NCBI GenBank assembly: GCA_030523725.1
Contig: JAUNHV010000001.1
Location: 1 to 64,000, forward strand
Direction: 5' to 3'
Source of the DNA: Synergistaceae bacterium
GTDB lineage: Bacteria; Synergistota; Synergistia; Synergistales; Synergistaceae
DNA: 64,000 bases
The position numbers and the translations under genes were made by a program. Under the pieces are notes generated by a model, which saw only the letters and a program-made list of their open reading frames with translations, searched no databases and was not told where the DNA came from. Shown piece after piece: positions 17,724 through 60,807 of the stretch; positions within the stretch are counted from its first letter, which is position 1, and the number at the start of each line of letters is the position of its first letter.

Positions 17724-17749
17724 GTTTTAACTTTAACTAAATTTTCTTA

Positions 17750-17836
17750 AAATTTTCTCAAAATTTACACTGCTTTTTTATATGATATTACTGCTTTTAC
17801 CACTTACACTATGTTCACAAAAGTGAACATTTTTTT
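17750..17836 (+). promoter_or_regulatory. Repeated 85-bp module, copy 1 (orphan)
   Basis: Three blocks are seen: AAATTTTCTCAAAATTT (17750-17766), TATGATATTACTG (17781-17793) and the perfect hairpin ATGTTCAC AAAA GTGAACAT (17811-17830) followed by seven Ts. The middle block resembles a -10 region. The hairpin plus T-run could be an operator or a very early terminator. No plus-strand gene follows, since pncC is convergent. Matching copies are at 44336 and 55049. Confidence 0.5.
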
Positions 17837-17920: not shown

Positions 17921-17930
17921 TCCTTTATTG

Positions 17931-18470
17931 CTAATGTTTTTTTAGAAATTCTATAAATGCTAAGAGAGTTTCAAAAGCTATTACAGCAATTTGCAACCGA
18001 ACGTTTTCTCTTGTCCCCTCAAATATTTTCTTAAAGGTTTTTGTTATTCCACTCTTTGTTGCAATTCCAAAAAAAACAGTGCCAAGCGGATTTTCCTCTG
18101 TGCCTCCGTCCGGTCCTGCGAAGCCGGTTACAGAAATTGCTATGTCACTAGGAATTACGCCAAGCACACCGCTCGCCATTTGGGAAGCACAATCAGCACT
18201 CACTGCTCCAACCTCATCAAGCGTTTTAGGGCAAACACGCAAGACACTAGCCTTTACTTCGTCCGAATAAGAAACAACACTGCCATAAAACACAGCAGAA
18301 GAACCGGCAATATCTGTTACGCTCTTTGCCAAAAGTCCCCCTGTGCAAGACTCGGCAAAGGTAAAGTGTAGCCCTTTTTCTTTTGCCTTTGTTACAACCT
18401 GCACGGAAAGTTCATGCAACATGGCCGTCAAATCATTATCGCTTCTAATTTCTGCCATTTTGCTTAACAA
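17931..18470 (-). CDS. pncC: Nicotinamide-nucleotide amidase (CinA C-terminal type), copy 1
   Basis: A 179-residue stand-alone CinA C-terminal domain. The family deamidates nicotinamide mononucleotide in the pyridine nucleotide cycle. Motifs are [23 protein letters not shown] (nucleophile Ser region), [26 protein letters not shown] and [25 protein letters not shown]. It overlaps deoC by 26 bp. It is one of two near-identical copies (about 9 residue changes in 179 against the gene at 58076), part of a 1,175-bp gapless direct repeat. No N-terminal molybdopterin-like domain is present. Confidence 0.92.
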
Positions 18471-19110
18471 TCTTTACAATGCGAGAAGTACCAAGACGTT
18501 TTGCACCCAGGTTTAAGAAATCTTCTGCATCTTCCAAGCTCCCTATTCCGCCAGCGGCTTTAATTTTTTTACCGTTTGTGACGTGTTTTGCAAAGAGTGC
18601 AATGTCCTCTTTTGTGGCTCCACCAGTGCTGAAACCAGTTGAAGTTTTGATAAAATCTGCATCCGATTTGCTCACAATCTCACACATTTTTATTTTCTCT
18701 TCTTCTGTTAAAAGGCAGGTTTCTATTATTACCTTCAAAATTTTTTCAAGGCAATTTTGCTTTATCTCGTTAATTTCTTCCAAAATTTCGTCATAATTTT
18801 TGTCTTTTAGATCACCAATGTTGATGACCATATCAATTTCATCTGCACCATTCTGAACTGCTTGACGAGCTTCAAAACATTTGACTTCTTTTGTGGCATA
18901 GCCATTTGGAAAACCGATGACAGTGCAAATTGCGACACGCCCTGCCGCATATTCGCTAGCACGCTTCACATAAGTTGGTGGAATGCATACAGAAGCAGTT
19001 TTATATGCTATACCATCGTCAATAATTGACCTAATTTCGCTCCAAGTTGTCCCCTGTGACAAAAGCGTATGATCACAATGATTTAATATGTAGTTAATGT
19101 CCATTTTAAT
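17936..19110. repeat. 1,175-bp direct repeat, copy 1
   Basis: Covers pncC and deoC in full. The matching copy is 58081-59255, same orientation, 40,145 bp away, aligned without gaps. Homology stops 6 bp ahead of the deoC start. A further homologous block with terminator, tRNA and tRNA promoter follows at 19297-19504. Confidence 0.9.
18445..19104 (-). CDS. deoC: Deoxyribose-phosphate aldolase, copy 1
   Basis: A 219-residue class I aldolase that splits 2-deoxyribose 5-phosphate to acetaldehyde and glyceraldehyde 3-phosphate. Conserved parts are NHCDHTLL at the start, [34 protein letters not shown] with the Schiff-base Lys, and KAAGGIG. ATG 19104 has GGAG 11 bases upstream. It is about 98 percent identical in protein to the gene at 58590 (5 changes noted). 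Sequence upstream of the start differs completely between the copies, so expression may differ too. Confidence 0.95.
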
Positions 19111-19296
19111 TAGCTCCGTTTATTTTTCAATTTTTTTTAGTGCAACAATATTACAACGTGCAATGCGTGGAAAATTTTATTTTTGCATTTGCATTCAACT
19201 TGTAGCTTGGAAATGTGTGGTGAAAATAGACATGTTTTCGTAGCTACACTTTTGTTTGATATTTGTTTTAATCAGTGTTTCCCTAATAACTAACAC

Positions 19297-19326
19297 AAAA
19301 AGCCACTGAACCTATCAGTGGCTTTT
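19297..19326 (-). terminator. Intrinsic terminator after tRNA-Leu(CAA)
   Basis: AAAAGCCACTGA/TCAGTGGCTTTT stem with a short loop. Read on the minus strand it follows the tRNA by 22 bases and ends in Ts. It is duplicated at 60601-60629. Confidence 0.85.
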
Positions 19327-19348
19327 TGTTTGAAAATTTTTCAAAAAA

Positions 19349-19436
19349 TGGTGCCGGAGGGGAGACTCGAACTCCCACGAGGTGTTAGCCTCGGTGGATT
19401 TTGAGTCCACTGCGTCTGCCATTCCGCCACTCCGGC
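19349..19436 (-). tRNA. tRNA-Leu(CAA)
   Basis: An 88-nt gene with encoded CCA (19349-19351) and A73. The acceptor stem GCCGGAG/CTCCGGC pairs perfectly. The anticodon loop CTCAAAA gives CAA (reads UUG). A long variable arm CGAGG/CCTCG marks a class II tRNA, and TTCGAGTC is the T-loop region. Every visible stem is intact, so it should be functional. Confidence 0.95.
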
Positions 19437-19475
19437 AACTGTGCGACAAATCAACGTATCGCTAACTTCTATCTG

Positions 19476-19504
19476 ATTATATAATAAAATAGCACTTTTG
19501 GCAA
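19476..19504 (-). promoter_or_regulatory. Promoter of tRNA-Leu(CAA)
   Basis: On the minus strand TTGCCA (19499-19504) lies 17 bases ahead of TATAAT (19476-19481), about 40 bases before the tRNA. This is a good sigma-A promoter, and the second tRNA copy keeps a similar one. Confidence 0.75.
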
Positions 19505-54809: not shown

Positions 54810-54995
54810 AAGCCTCACAGTGTTCGCTCGCCACAGTTAGGAAAATAATTCACTGCGTAGGTTTTCCGACTCTCCTTCACCCTCACCAAACCTTCCCAGT
54901 TTTAACAACCAGTGGTATTTATGGTTCGTCCAGATTACGGCAGCGTGACTGTTTTGGATTTTCACCAAATTCCCTTCCGCAATTACTACCCGAAT
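54810..54995 (-). promoter_or_regulatory. Cobalamin riboswitch
   Basis: Read on the minus strand: GGGAATTTGGTGAAAATCC, CAGTCACGCTGC, a CCACTGG box, ACTGGGAAGG, and GAGTCGGAAAACCT in this order. This is the conserved core of adenosylcobalamin-type riboswitches. With the terminator at 54691 it should shut off the receptor gene when B12 is plentiful. Confidence 0.93.
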
Positions 54996-55048
54996 TTTAA
55001 CATGAAATATTTATTTGTCAAATATATTGATAAGTAAAACTGTTCAGT

Positions 55049-55146
55049 AAATTTTCTCAAAATTTTTTGCGTTTTTAGCGTGTTTTTGCTATGATATTAC
55101 TGTATTTTGAATTTTGGCTATGTTCACAAAAGTGAACATTTTTTTT
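55049..55146 (+). promoter_or_regulatory. Repeated module, copy 2, upstream of the XRE gene
   Basis: AAATTTTCTCAAAATTT (55049-55065), TATGATATTACTG (55090-55102) and the perfect hairpin ATGTTCAC AAAA GTGAACAT (55120-55139) with eight Ts. The spacing from second to third block is 30 bases, as in copy 1. The first interval is 10 bases longer. It is probably the promoter and operator, or attenuator, of the XRE gene. Confidence 0.6.
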
Positions 55147-58062: not shown

Positions 58063-58075
58063 TTGTCTTTTATAG

Positions 58076-58615
58076 TTAGCGTTTTTTTAGAAATTCAATA
58101 AATGCTAAGAGAGTTTCAAAAGCCGTTACAGCAGTTTGCAAGCGAACGTTTTCTCTTGTCCCCTCAAATATTTTCTTAAAGGTTTTTGTTATTCCGCTCT
58201 TTGTTGCAATTCCAAAATAAACAGTGCCAAGCGGATTTTCCTCTGTGCCTCCGTCCGGTCCTGCAAAGCCCGTTACAGAAATTGCTATGTCACTCGGAAT
58301 TACGCCAAGCACACCGCTTGCCATTTGAGAAGCACAATCAGCACTCACTGCTCCAACCTCATCAAGCGTTTTTTGGCAAACACGCAAGACACTAGCCTTT
58401 ACTTCGTCCGAATAAGAAACAACACTGCCATAAAACACAGCAGAAGAACCGGCAATATCTGTTACGCTCTTCGCCAAAAGTCCCCCTGTGCAAGACTCGG
58501 CAAAGGTAAAGTGAAGCCCATTTTCTTTTGCCTTTGTTACAACCTGCACGGAAAGTTCATGCAACATTGCCATCAAATCAATATTGCTTCTAATTTCTGC
58601 CATTTTGCTTAACAA
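58076..58615 (-). CDS. pncC: Nicotinamide-nucleotide amidase, copy 2
   Basis: A 179-residue twin of the gene at 17931, with about 95 percent protein identity. All family motifs remain ([33 protein letters not shown]), so both copies are probably active. Changes are scattered (for example DNDLT to NIDLM near the start, and VFFG to VYFG), which suggests a recent duplication. It overlaps deoC copy 2 by 26 bp as in copy 1. Confidence 0.92.
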
Positions 58616-59255
58616 TCTTTACAATGCGAGAAGTGCCAAGACGTTCTGCACCTAGATTTAAGAAATCTTCTGCATCTTTCAAGCTTCCTATTCCACCGGC
58701 GGCTTTAATTTTTTTACCATTTGTGACATGCTTTGCAAAGAGTGCTATATCCTCTTTGGTAGCTCCACCAGTGCTGAAGCCAGTTGAAGTCTTGATAAAA
58801 TCTGCCTCTGATTTGCTCACAATCTCACACATTTTTATTTTCTCTTCTTCTGTTAAAAGGCAAGTTTCTATTATTACCTTCAAAATTTTTCCAAGACAAT
58901 TTTGCTTTATTTCGTTAATTTCTTCCAAAATCTCGTCATAATTTTTGTCTTTTAGATCGCCGATGTTGATAACCATGTCAATTTCATCTGCACCGTTTTG
59001 AACCGCCTGACGAGCCTCAAAACATTTTACTTCTTTTGTGGCATAGCCATTTGGAAAACCGATGACAGTGCAAATTGCGACACGCCCTGCCGCATATTCG
59101 CTAGCACGCTTCACATAAGTTGGTGGAATGCATACAGAAGCAGTTTTATATGCTATACCATCGTCAATAATTGACCTAATTTCGCTCCAGGTTGCCCCCT
59201 GTGACAAAAGCGTATGATCACAATGATTTAATATGTAGTTAATATCCATTTTAAT
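58081..59255. repeat. 1,175-bp direct repeat, copy 2
   Basis: Gapless partner of 17936-19110 in the same orientation. Homology ends 6 bases ahead of the deoC start, where the antiporter gene begins. It resumes at the terminator, tRNA and tRNA promoter (60601-60807). Confidence 0.9.
58590..59249 (-). CDS. deoC: Deoxyribose-phosphate aldolase, copy 2
   Basis: A 219-residue aldolase differing from copy 1 at about five residues (GTTW to GATW, LEKI to LGKI, SDAD to SEAD, SLED to SLKD, AKRL to AERL), none in the Schiff-base motif FIKTSTGF. Unlike copy 1 it directly follows the antiporter gene (1 bp gap) and should be co-transcribed with it. Confidence 0.95.
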
Positions 59256-60564
59256 CGTCCTTTTTCATAAATAAAATAGCAATAACTGTAGTAATGCATA
59301 GACAAAATGGATAAACGACACACGGAATGACATCAAAGGGAGAAACTTCTGCCTTTAATTGTGATGCTATGCCAAGTGCAACAAGCATTTGTGCCCCGTA
59401 GGGCAAGAGCCCTTGCACAACACAGCTGAATATATCAAGCACAGATGCAACTTTCTTGGGGGCAATTTGATATATTTTGGCAAGCTCTTTTGCTATTGGA
59501 TTTGCAATAATTATTGCCACAGTATTATTCGCTGTCGCCACATCTAACGCAGAAACTAAAATACCTATACCAAGAAGCCCAGCGCGTTTTGTTTTGCAAA
59601 GCCATTTTATTTTTATGATAAGTGCTTCAAAACCTCCGCTATCTGCTATCAAGGCACATATTGCAGAAACGAGAATTGCCACCATGGACGTCTCAAACAT
59701 TCCACTGGCACCACTGCCCATTTTTGTAAAGATTCTCAAAAAATCAATATGACCGGAAGCAATTGATATTACCATTCCAGAAATAATTCCTACCAGTAAA
59801 TCTATAAAGACATTCAGCCCTAGCACTCCCCCTACAAGAACCAGAAAATATGGTATCACTGAAACCAAATTGCTATTTTCTCCAACAATTTCTATGGAGG
59901 AATGACCACGAGCGAGAAGCGCAAAAACTATTATGGCAAGCAAAGCGGCAGGTATCGCTATAGCAATATTAGTCCTAAATTTATCCTTCATTTGACAACC
60001 TTGATATTGACACGCAGCAATTGTTGTGTCTGAAATTAATGACAAATTATCTCCAAACATAGCACCGCTGATTACCGCACCTAGACAAAGCGTAACTGGG
60101 AAATGTGCTGTCTGTGCCATTACAGTAGCTATAGGTACCATTAATGCAATCGTACCAACTGAGGTGCCCATTGCCATGGAAACTAAACTGCAAGAAACAA
60201 AAATCGCAGGAAGATCAAGGTATGGTGGGCAATTAGGGAGTATGTAGTAAACAATATTTTCTGCCCCTTTTCTACCAATAACACCTACAAAAATTCCTGC
60301 CTCGAGAAAAATGATTAACATCGTTATCAAATTTGCGTCGCCCAAACCCTTAGCCATTTGTGCCAATTTTTCTTTCAAGCTTGGCAAAGGTGATTGTATA
60401 ATTGCTACACCAAGAGAGATTAAAAATATAACAACAATCGGGACTTGGTAAATACCGTATTCCTTTGGCAAAATAAACTCAAAAGCTAATCCAAGTGCAA
60501 TATAAATTAATACAAATATAGCAATTGGAAGTAATTTGAATAAACTTGGTTTTCTTTCTTGCAT
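59251..60564 (-). CDS. NhaC-type Na+/H+ antiporter family protein
   Basis: A 437-residue membrane protein with about eleven hydrophobic segments. [40 protein letters not shown] and [16 protein letters not shown] are typical of the NhaC/ion-transporter superfamily, which also includes organic-acid exchangers. The actual substrate is not clear from sequence. It lies between deoC copy 2 and the second tRNA, a place that holds only about 190 bp of unrelated DNA in copy 1. Confidence 0.88.
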
Positions 60565-60600
60565 GTTATATTTTCACTCCATTCTTTTTTATTTAATTAA

Positions 60601-60629
60601 AAAAGCCACTGAATTTATCAGTGGCTTTT
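60601..60629 (-). terminator. Intrinsic terminator after the second tRNA
   Basis: AAAAGCCACTGA/TCAGTGGCTTTT, same stem as at 19297 with a changed loop. It separates the tRNA from the antiporter gene. Confidence 0.85.
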
Positions 60630-60651
60630 TGTTTAAAATTTTTTCAAAAAA

Positions 60652-60739
60652 TGGTGCCTGAGGGGAGACTCGAACTCCCACGAGGTGTTAGTCCCGATGG
60701 ATTTCGAGTCCACTGCGTCTGCCAGTCCGCCACTCCGGC
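60652..60739 (-). tRNA. tRNA-Leu-like gene with CGA anticodon; possible pseudogene
   Basis: An 88-nt homologue of the gene at 19349 with encoded CCA and A73. The anticodon loop reads CTCGAAA, giving CGA (a Ser UCG anticodon) from CAA by one A-to-G change. The body stays Leu-like: D-arm, long variable arm and acceptor end. Damage: G4-A69 mismatch in the acceptor stem, G27-T43 wobble, and a weaker variable arm (CGGGA against CCTCG). Promoter and terminator are kept. It could be a decayed copy, or a charged tRNA that places Leu at UCG. Confidence 0.7.
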
Positions 60740-60778
60740 AACAGCGCGACAAACTAACGCATCGCTAACACTGGGCGG

Positions 60779-60807
60779 ATTATATAACAAAATATCTTTT
60801 TTTGCAA
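60779..60807 (-). promoter_or_regulatory. Promoter of the second tRNA
   Basis: TTGCAA (60802-60807) and TATAAT (60779-60784), 17 bases apart on the minus strand. Homologous to the promoter at 19476 with a slightly weaker -35. Confidence 0.65.

Follow-up and report, generated by a model that had tools for sequence, protein, structure and literature searches.

A leucine-type tRNA gene with a serine anticodon in a Synergistaceae bacterium is probably a decaying duplicate of tRNA-Leu(CAA)

Introduction

Four described groups of tRNAs come close to the gene reported here. The Streptomyces tRNA-ProX likewise joins the body of one amino acid to the anticodon of another, and it also has an odd 15-48 pair, A15-A48, yet works according to the account in PMC11415595. 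The same source treats the yeast tRNA-Ser(CAG) and the CUG reassignments, which resemble our case in that a duplication was combined with a change of anticodon and with a synthetase that ignores the anticodon (PMC11415595). The nev-tRNAs of nematodes have the long arm and non-Leu anticodons and are described as accepting leucine in vitro (PMC4300185). Finally, the so-called isotype-disagreement tRNAs are, like our gene, recent copies from one tRNA family that have another family's anticodon; published examples have been explained by gene transfer or as pseudogenes, silenced or repetitive, a silenced pseudogene being among the authors' readings of the human case. For leucylation by the E. coli leucyl-tRNA synthetase (LeuRS), A15-U48, G18G19 and A20a are reported to be essential together with A73, and the anticodon is reported to be unneeded (PMC9976931).

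Here we analyse a Leu-type tRNA gene with a CGA anticodon in a Synergistaceae bacterium (GenBank assembly GCA_030523725.1). It lies in a window, by which we mean the whole stretch of 64,000 nt that was analysed (contig JAUNHV010000001.1, positions 1 to 64,000). The original prediction for this gene was that its product could carry leucine to UCG codons, with decay of the gene as the alternative.

Results

Two tRNA genes were found in the window, and ARAGORN labelled them tRNA-Ser(cga) and tRNA-Leu(caa) (Table 1). They are paralogues of 88 nt each, which differ at six positions and have the variable-arm loop in common. With the Rfam model RF00005 (cut-off, 29 bits) the CGA gene scored 46.6 bits and the CAA gene 56.7 bits; the former was the lowest of the 47 hits in the genome (1.55 Mb, 15 contigs), and tRNA-Leu(GAG) (47.9 bits) and tRNA-Glu(CTC) (48.4 bits) came just above it. 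We also built a covariance model from the tRNA-Leu(CAA) of 29 relatives, and the same 29 genes, when scored on it, gave 96.6-113.3 bits. The CAA gene reached 105.0 bits on this model and the other four Leu tRNAs of the genome 64.6-84.9 bits. Because the CGA gene scored 86.9 bits and the true tRNA-Ser(CGA) of the genome 48.3 bits, in a comparison made on the Leu model alone, the body of the CGA gene is, judged by these scores, of the leucine type rather than the serine type, and is closest to the tRNA-Leu(CAA) at 19349. The discriminator is A73, as expected of a functional tRNA-Leu, instead of the G73 of a functional tRNA-Ser, and the anticodon has neither the N-A-A nor the N-A-G form of a functional tRNA-Leu. 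ARAGORN, Rfam and the Leu(CAA) model thus bore out what had been predicted, a Leu body with a Ser anticodon and a paralogue of the gene at 19349, and the tRNA-type scoring that had been proposed placed the CGA gene below the CAA gene on both models. The intact tRNA-Leu(CAA) at 19349 provides the redundancy that is expected for a tRNA pseudogene or a decaying duplicate.

Table 1 Features of the two copies of the block in the window.
Feature	Position	Strand	Remarks
cinA C-terminal-type gene, copy A	17931..18470	(-)	PF02464
deoC, copy A	18445..19104	(-)	DeoC/LacD aldolase, PF01791
Terminator, tRNA-Leu(CAA)	19295..19329	(-)	Terminator scan
tRNA-Leu(CAA), intact parental type	19349..19436	(-)	ARAGORN and Rfam
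Promoter TTGCCA-17-TATAAT, tRNA-Leu(CAA)	19476..19504	(-)	Promoter scan
cinA C-terminal-type gene, copy B	58076..58615	(-)	PF02464 identified on copy A
deoC, copy B	58590..59249	(-)	PF01791 identified on copy A
Na+/H+ antiporter family gene	59251..60564	(-)	PF03553; between tRNA and deoC, in the CGA copy alone
Terminator-like hairpin and T tract, CGA copy	60600..60630	(-)	Same arms as in the CAA copy
Leu-type tRNA gene, anticodon CGA	60652..60739	(-)	A73, encoded CCA, C15.U48, G4.A69, G27.U43; variable arm with G.U and A.C
Sigma-70-like promoter TTGCAA-17-TATAAT, CGA copy	60779..60807	(-)	Consensus match only

From the CAA gene to the CGA gene, the six differences are A>C at position 15, A>G at 35, C>U at 43, A>G and G>A in the variable arm, and C>A at 69. 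The change at 35 turns the anticodon from CAA into CGA, and all the other five sit on paired positions, where three of them break a pair and none is compensated. The A15-U48 Levitt pair becomes C15.U48, C69A yields G4.A69, and C43U converts G27-C43 into a G.U; in the variable arm, the A>G gives a G.U and the G>A an A.C mismatch. The G4-A69 mismatch and the weakened variable arm of the original prediction were therefore found again. In the tRNA-Leu(CAA) of all 29 relatives, positions 15-48, 4-69 and 27-43 were A-U, G-C and G-C, respectively, so that the CGA copy holds the derived state at these three places, and their acceptor, anticodon and T stems contained no mismatch at all (29/29). The direction of the two variable-arm changes cannot be firmly polarised.

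The A15-U48 pair, which is expected of a functional tRNA-Leu and is lost in the CGA gene, was present in all five Leu tRNAs of the genome and in 29/29 relatives, and among the 44 distinct tRNAs of the genome only the CGA gene had no purine at 15. Five other tRNAs of the genome had one stem mismatch apiece. The CCA, U8-A14, G18G19 and the T-arm remained intact. Among the Leu features said to be retained, A73 and the long variable arm were indeed kept, whereas the D-arm, with its changed position 15, is not fully Leu-like. Since tRNA-ProX works with A15-A48, an odd 15-48 pair alone is no proof of loss. The minimum-energy fold of the CGA copy (−34.7 kcal/mol) was not a cloverleaf, whereas that of the CAA copy (−37.5 kcal/mol) was, which is weak evidence because energy-only folds of tRNAs are unreliable.

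The duplication extends beyond the tRNA. Positions 17921-19110 and 58066-59255, spanning cinA and deoC, were 94.7% identical over 1190 bp without gaps, and positions 19297-19504 and 60600-60807, spanning the tRNA with its promoter and terminator, were 87% identical over 208 bp. A search of the whole genome returned the same two matches and no third copy of that length. The gene had been taken for a copy of a tRNA gene; the paralogy holds, and the copied unit is larger than a single gene, being a block with cinA and deoC in which the tRNA stands at one end. The interval between deoC and the tRNA holds the antiporter gene in the CGA copy as opposed to 186 bp in the CAA copy. Between the two cinA copies dN was about 0.025 and dS 0.11, and between the two deoC copies dN was 0.01 and dS 0.21-0.27; by these values, both copies of cinA and deoC are under purifying selection and maintained. 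As to the ancestral place of the block, no window gene that we tested was found within some 1.5 kb of tRNA-Leu(CAA) in the 29 relatives, or of deoC in 29 relatives. A mobile-element attachment site, with its half-tRNA repeat, was considered and is not favoured, the copied unit consisting of a promoter, a whole gene, a terminator and two protein genes.

The cinA-deoC copies (17921-19110 and 58066-59255) form direct repeats about 40 kb apart; the interval would be lost if they recombined with each other. Elsewhere in the window, a pair of 109-bp intergenic stretches (17729-17836 and 55038-55145) was 77% alike, the second lying near a cobalamin riboswitch at 54837-55019(-).

The synonymous distances, from 0.11 (cinA) to 0.27 (deoC), lead one to expect 4.8-11.9 changes in 88 nt on one unconstrained branch, if every change is placed on the CGA branch and gene conversion is assumed absent; six were observed. 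At the largest dS, the six changes fall a little short of the neutral number (P about 0.05), which leaves room for weak constraint on the CGA copy. When five changes were placed at random in a simulation, at least three pairs were broken in 45% of the runs, and in 9% every change lay on a pair. Three uncompensated pair-breaking changes at a near-neutral rate are what a tRNA pseudogene or decaying duplicate would have, and the pattern is, as far as these comparisons go, that given by drift and unlike that of a conserved tRNA.

The promoter and terminator were predicted to be kept in the CGA copy, and we found both, the −10 box and the 17-nt spacer being common to the two copies and the terminator arms the same. 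The −35 box is TTGCAA in the CGA copy and TTGCCA in the CAA copy. Promoter-like matches around the CGA copy were at the level of chance (three, against a mean of 2.3 in shuffled sequences); the calls are credible because they fall at the same place in both copies. The terminator scan listed none for the CGA copy, though its arms match those of the paralogue by eye. The upstream stretch of promoter and leader diverged more (17/68 positions) than the tRNA (6/88). Because the −10 box, the spacing and the terminator are intact, the CGA copy probably retains some transcription.

The genome has four normal Ser tRNAs (GCU, GGA, CGA and UGA), all with G73, and five Leu tRNAs. The normal tRNA-Ser(CGA) is located on contig 8, which led us to reject the possibility that the CGA copy replaces a missing tRNA-Ser(CGA); a match to tRNA-Ser(CGA) or to another Ser tRNA was found in each of the 36 genomes searched, the one of the window among them. 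In a search for a dedicated synthetase, one LeuRS gene and one SerRS gene exceeded the family cut-offs in the genome, and lesser hits fell below them. Neither tRNA-Ile(GAU) nor tRNA-Ala(UGC) was among the tRNAs recovered from the genome; both were probably lost with the rRNA operons at contig breaks.

TCG was the rarest Ser codon in the window ORFs counted, which were chosen by length (at least 150 aa), with 70 occurrences among 18,620 codons, of which 1,198 were Ser codons. As predicted, it is used for Ser in the NYASS repeats, in all three of them and at 4 of their 6 Ser codons. We aligned three proteins (PolA, PheT and OppC) with up to 29 relatives per gene. Of the 297 aligned cells that faced their 11 TCG codons, 44.8% were Ser and 1.0% were Leu, and in the same alignments other Ser codons faced Ser in 26-50% and TTG faced Leu in 51%. 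UCG occurred at near-invariant serines, namely PolA 546 (Ser in 28/28), PolA 680 in the motif DYSQIE (27/28) and OppC 186 (29/29). Because TCG aligns with serine, at near-invariant positions too, UCG means serine in this genome as far as the alignments tell, and wholesale insertion of leucine would be harmful; with Leu at 1.0% of the cells, a reassignment of UCG to leucine was rejected.

With a strict pattern, which required a Leu D-arm together with CGA, one of 180 genomes of the order matched, namely the window's own, and none of the other 179 contained anything like the CGA copy, so that the recurrence known for tRNA-ProX was not seen; the genus holds no other genome. A wider pattern, allowing any N-G-A anticodon, found 41 stretches in 84,980 species genomes. 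Twenty of the stretches gave no tRNA call and were set aside, as by their look they are mostly what we take to be group I introns in tRNA-Leu(UAA). The other 21 held a complete tRNA of this kind; a script assigned A73 to 13 and G73 to six (five DPANN archaea and one Hymenobacter) and left two without assignment. A stem free of mismatches throughout was seen in four of the 13 A73 tRNAs (L078, L100, L101 and L110). Among the bacterial ones the anticodon CGA was seen once (L080), where, by eye, an extra base precedes the acceptor strand. These sequences suggest that tRNAs of the Leu type seldom have a Ser anticodon, that such chimeras recur and that most of them are imperfect in body; many of them derive from metagenome assemblies. 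Viral stretches were also searched, and 2 of 12 (L275 and L285, IMG/VR contigs) held a Leu-type tRNA with a UGA (Ser) anticodon. In the literature found on Leu/Ser anticodon mismatch and mistranslation, no title or abstract opening concerned a bacterial tRNA with a Leu body and a Ser anticodon.

Several of these stretches formed groups. In five alphaproteobacterial ones (L079, L081, L090, L092 and L113) the tRNA is of the Leu type, with A73 and an anticodon that reads UGA or AGA. In L079, L090 and L113 an IS1595-family transposase gene (PF12762/PF12760) lies just upstream of it, and in L081, L092 and L113 it is followed by a small coiled-looking ORF, the one in L092 giving no Pfam match; after this ORF, L081 and L113 have a second tRNA, which is short and has the anticodon GCU. 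The set looks like a transposon-borne cassette of odd tRNAs, and titles and abstract listings yielded nothing on such a cassette. The five DPANN loci (L087, L096, L111, L112 and L115), two of them from one Diapherotrites genome, combine G73 and a Ser anticodon (GGA or CGA) with A15-U48 and a D-arm like that of Leu tRNAs, and probably hold genuine Ser tRNAs whose core resembles that of tRNA-Leu. Two different Leu-type tRNAs with GGA (Ser) anticodons and A73 (L086 and L101) came from a single Hyphomicrobiales metagenome assembly (CLI1_bin_3); that of L101 has no stem mismatch.

Discussion

The CGA gene is probably a decaying duplicate of tRNA-Leu(CAA) that is possibly still transcribed. Of the two readings offered originally, decay is the better supported, with three broken pairs, a change that fits no constraint, and a score on the Leu(CAA) model below those of the paralogue and all 29 relatives. 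It is the best supported reading overall because of the duplication, the broken pairs, the near-neutral change, the low scores and the absence from 179 genomes of the order. A block of cinA, deoC and tRNA-Leu(CAA), including the promoter and terminator of the tRNA gene, would have been copied to a site on the same strand at a distance of about 41 kb. Both copies of the protein genes would then have been maintained, while one tRNA copy kept the Leu(CAA) job and the other, being redundant, drifted, CGA being one of six hits. The CGA tRNA should then fold, mature and be leucylated poorly, and would do little or no work in translation; we infer expression, instability and poor charging.

A working missense tRNA, charged by LeuRS through A73 and inserting some leucine at UCG in competition with tRNA-Ser(CGA) and tRNA-Ser(UGA), seems unlikely to us, whether as tolerated noise or, as may be, with some stress-related benefit. 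LeuRS would have A73, G18G19, U8-A14 and an intact T-arm to work on, and that of E. coli leucylates without the anticodon, as had been predicted (PMC9976931), but A15-U48, which is reported as essential in E. coli, is lost, and there is damage at G4.A69 and in the variable arm. The promoter and terminator would permit such a function, and its cost would be small because UCG is the rarest Ser codon, yet UCG stands at near-invariant serines of PolA and OppC. Encoded mistranslation is known in bacteria (tRNA-ProX) and in yeasts (PMC11415595); here there is no dedicated synthetase and no conservation in the order, and nematode nev-tRNAs, although charged with Leu in vitro, gave no detectable misincorporation according to PMC4300185. 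That we have caught a freshly born mistranslating tRNA, transcribed, charged by LeuRS and placing Leu at a fraction of UCG codons beside the normal tRNA-Ser(CGA), is in our estimate quite unlikely. The original proposal that the CGA tRNA brings leucine to UCG, which had missed the loss of A15-U48, gained no positive support; mistranslation at a low level is possible, again with no positive support.

A remoulded tRNA-Ser, charged with serine by SerRS and thus a harmless extra tRNA-Ser(CGA), is very unlikely. SerRS recognition is independent of the anticodon and the long arm is present, and remoulding seems possible from the five DPANN loci, where a Ser anticodon is paired with a Leu-like D-arm and G73; the present gene, however, has A73 where all four normal Ser tRNAs have G73, has a Leu(CAA)-model score far from that of the true tRNA-Ser(CGA), and coexists with this normal gene. 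The Leu-to-Ser switches reviewed in PMC9976931 were made by A73 -> G73. Likewise very unlikely is a role outside translation, as a decoy, a source of RNA fragments or an aminoacyl donor, for which a bad fold and an arbitrary anticodon would be acceptable. Retention of the expression signals despite damage to the body would fit such a role, but no neighbouring gene hints at it, the gene is not conserved, and the duplication is young enough for the signals to have survived by chance.

If the CGA gene is decaying, it illustrates how a duplicated tRNA gene of a bacterium can come to have, for a time, an anticodon that would be dangerous in a charged tRNA, and it shows that annotation programs plainly label such a copy tRNA-Ser. 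If it is charged, it would be a natural bacterial missense tRNA placing Leu at a serine codon, the reverse of the yeast CUG case, and a freshly born mistranslating tRNA would be an ambiguity of the genetic code caught soon after gene duplication. The small set beside IS1595-type transposases may be the more interesting lead.

The known systems differ from the decaying duplicate that we favour in several respects. tRNA-ProX is a recurrent family, is encoded together with a dedicated ProRSx and mistranslates in E. coli, as described in PMC11415595, whereas the CGA copy has no partner synthetase and no family and is visibly decaying. The nev-tRNAs are reported to be conserved in nematodes (PMC4300185), whereas the CGA copy was found in no relative examined. 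The yeast tRNA-Ser(CAG) runs in the opposite direction, with a Ser body reading a Leu codon, is fixed in clades and, by the account in PMC11415595, was shown to decode. Compared with the isotype-disagreement tRNAs, the CGA copy is bacterial, combines a Leu body with a Ser anticodon, and is a single copy within a segmental duplication that includes protein genes.
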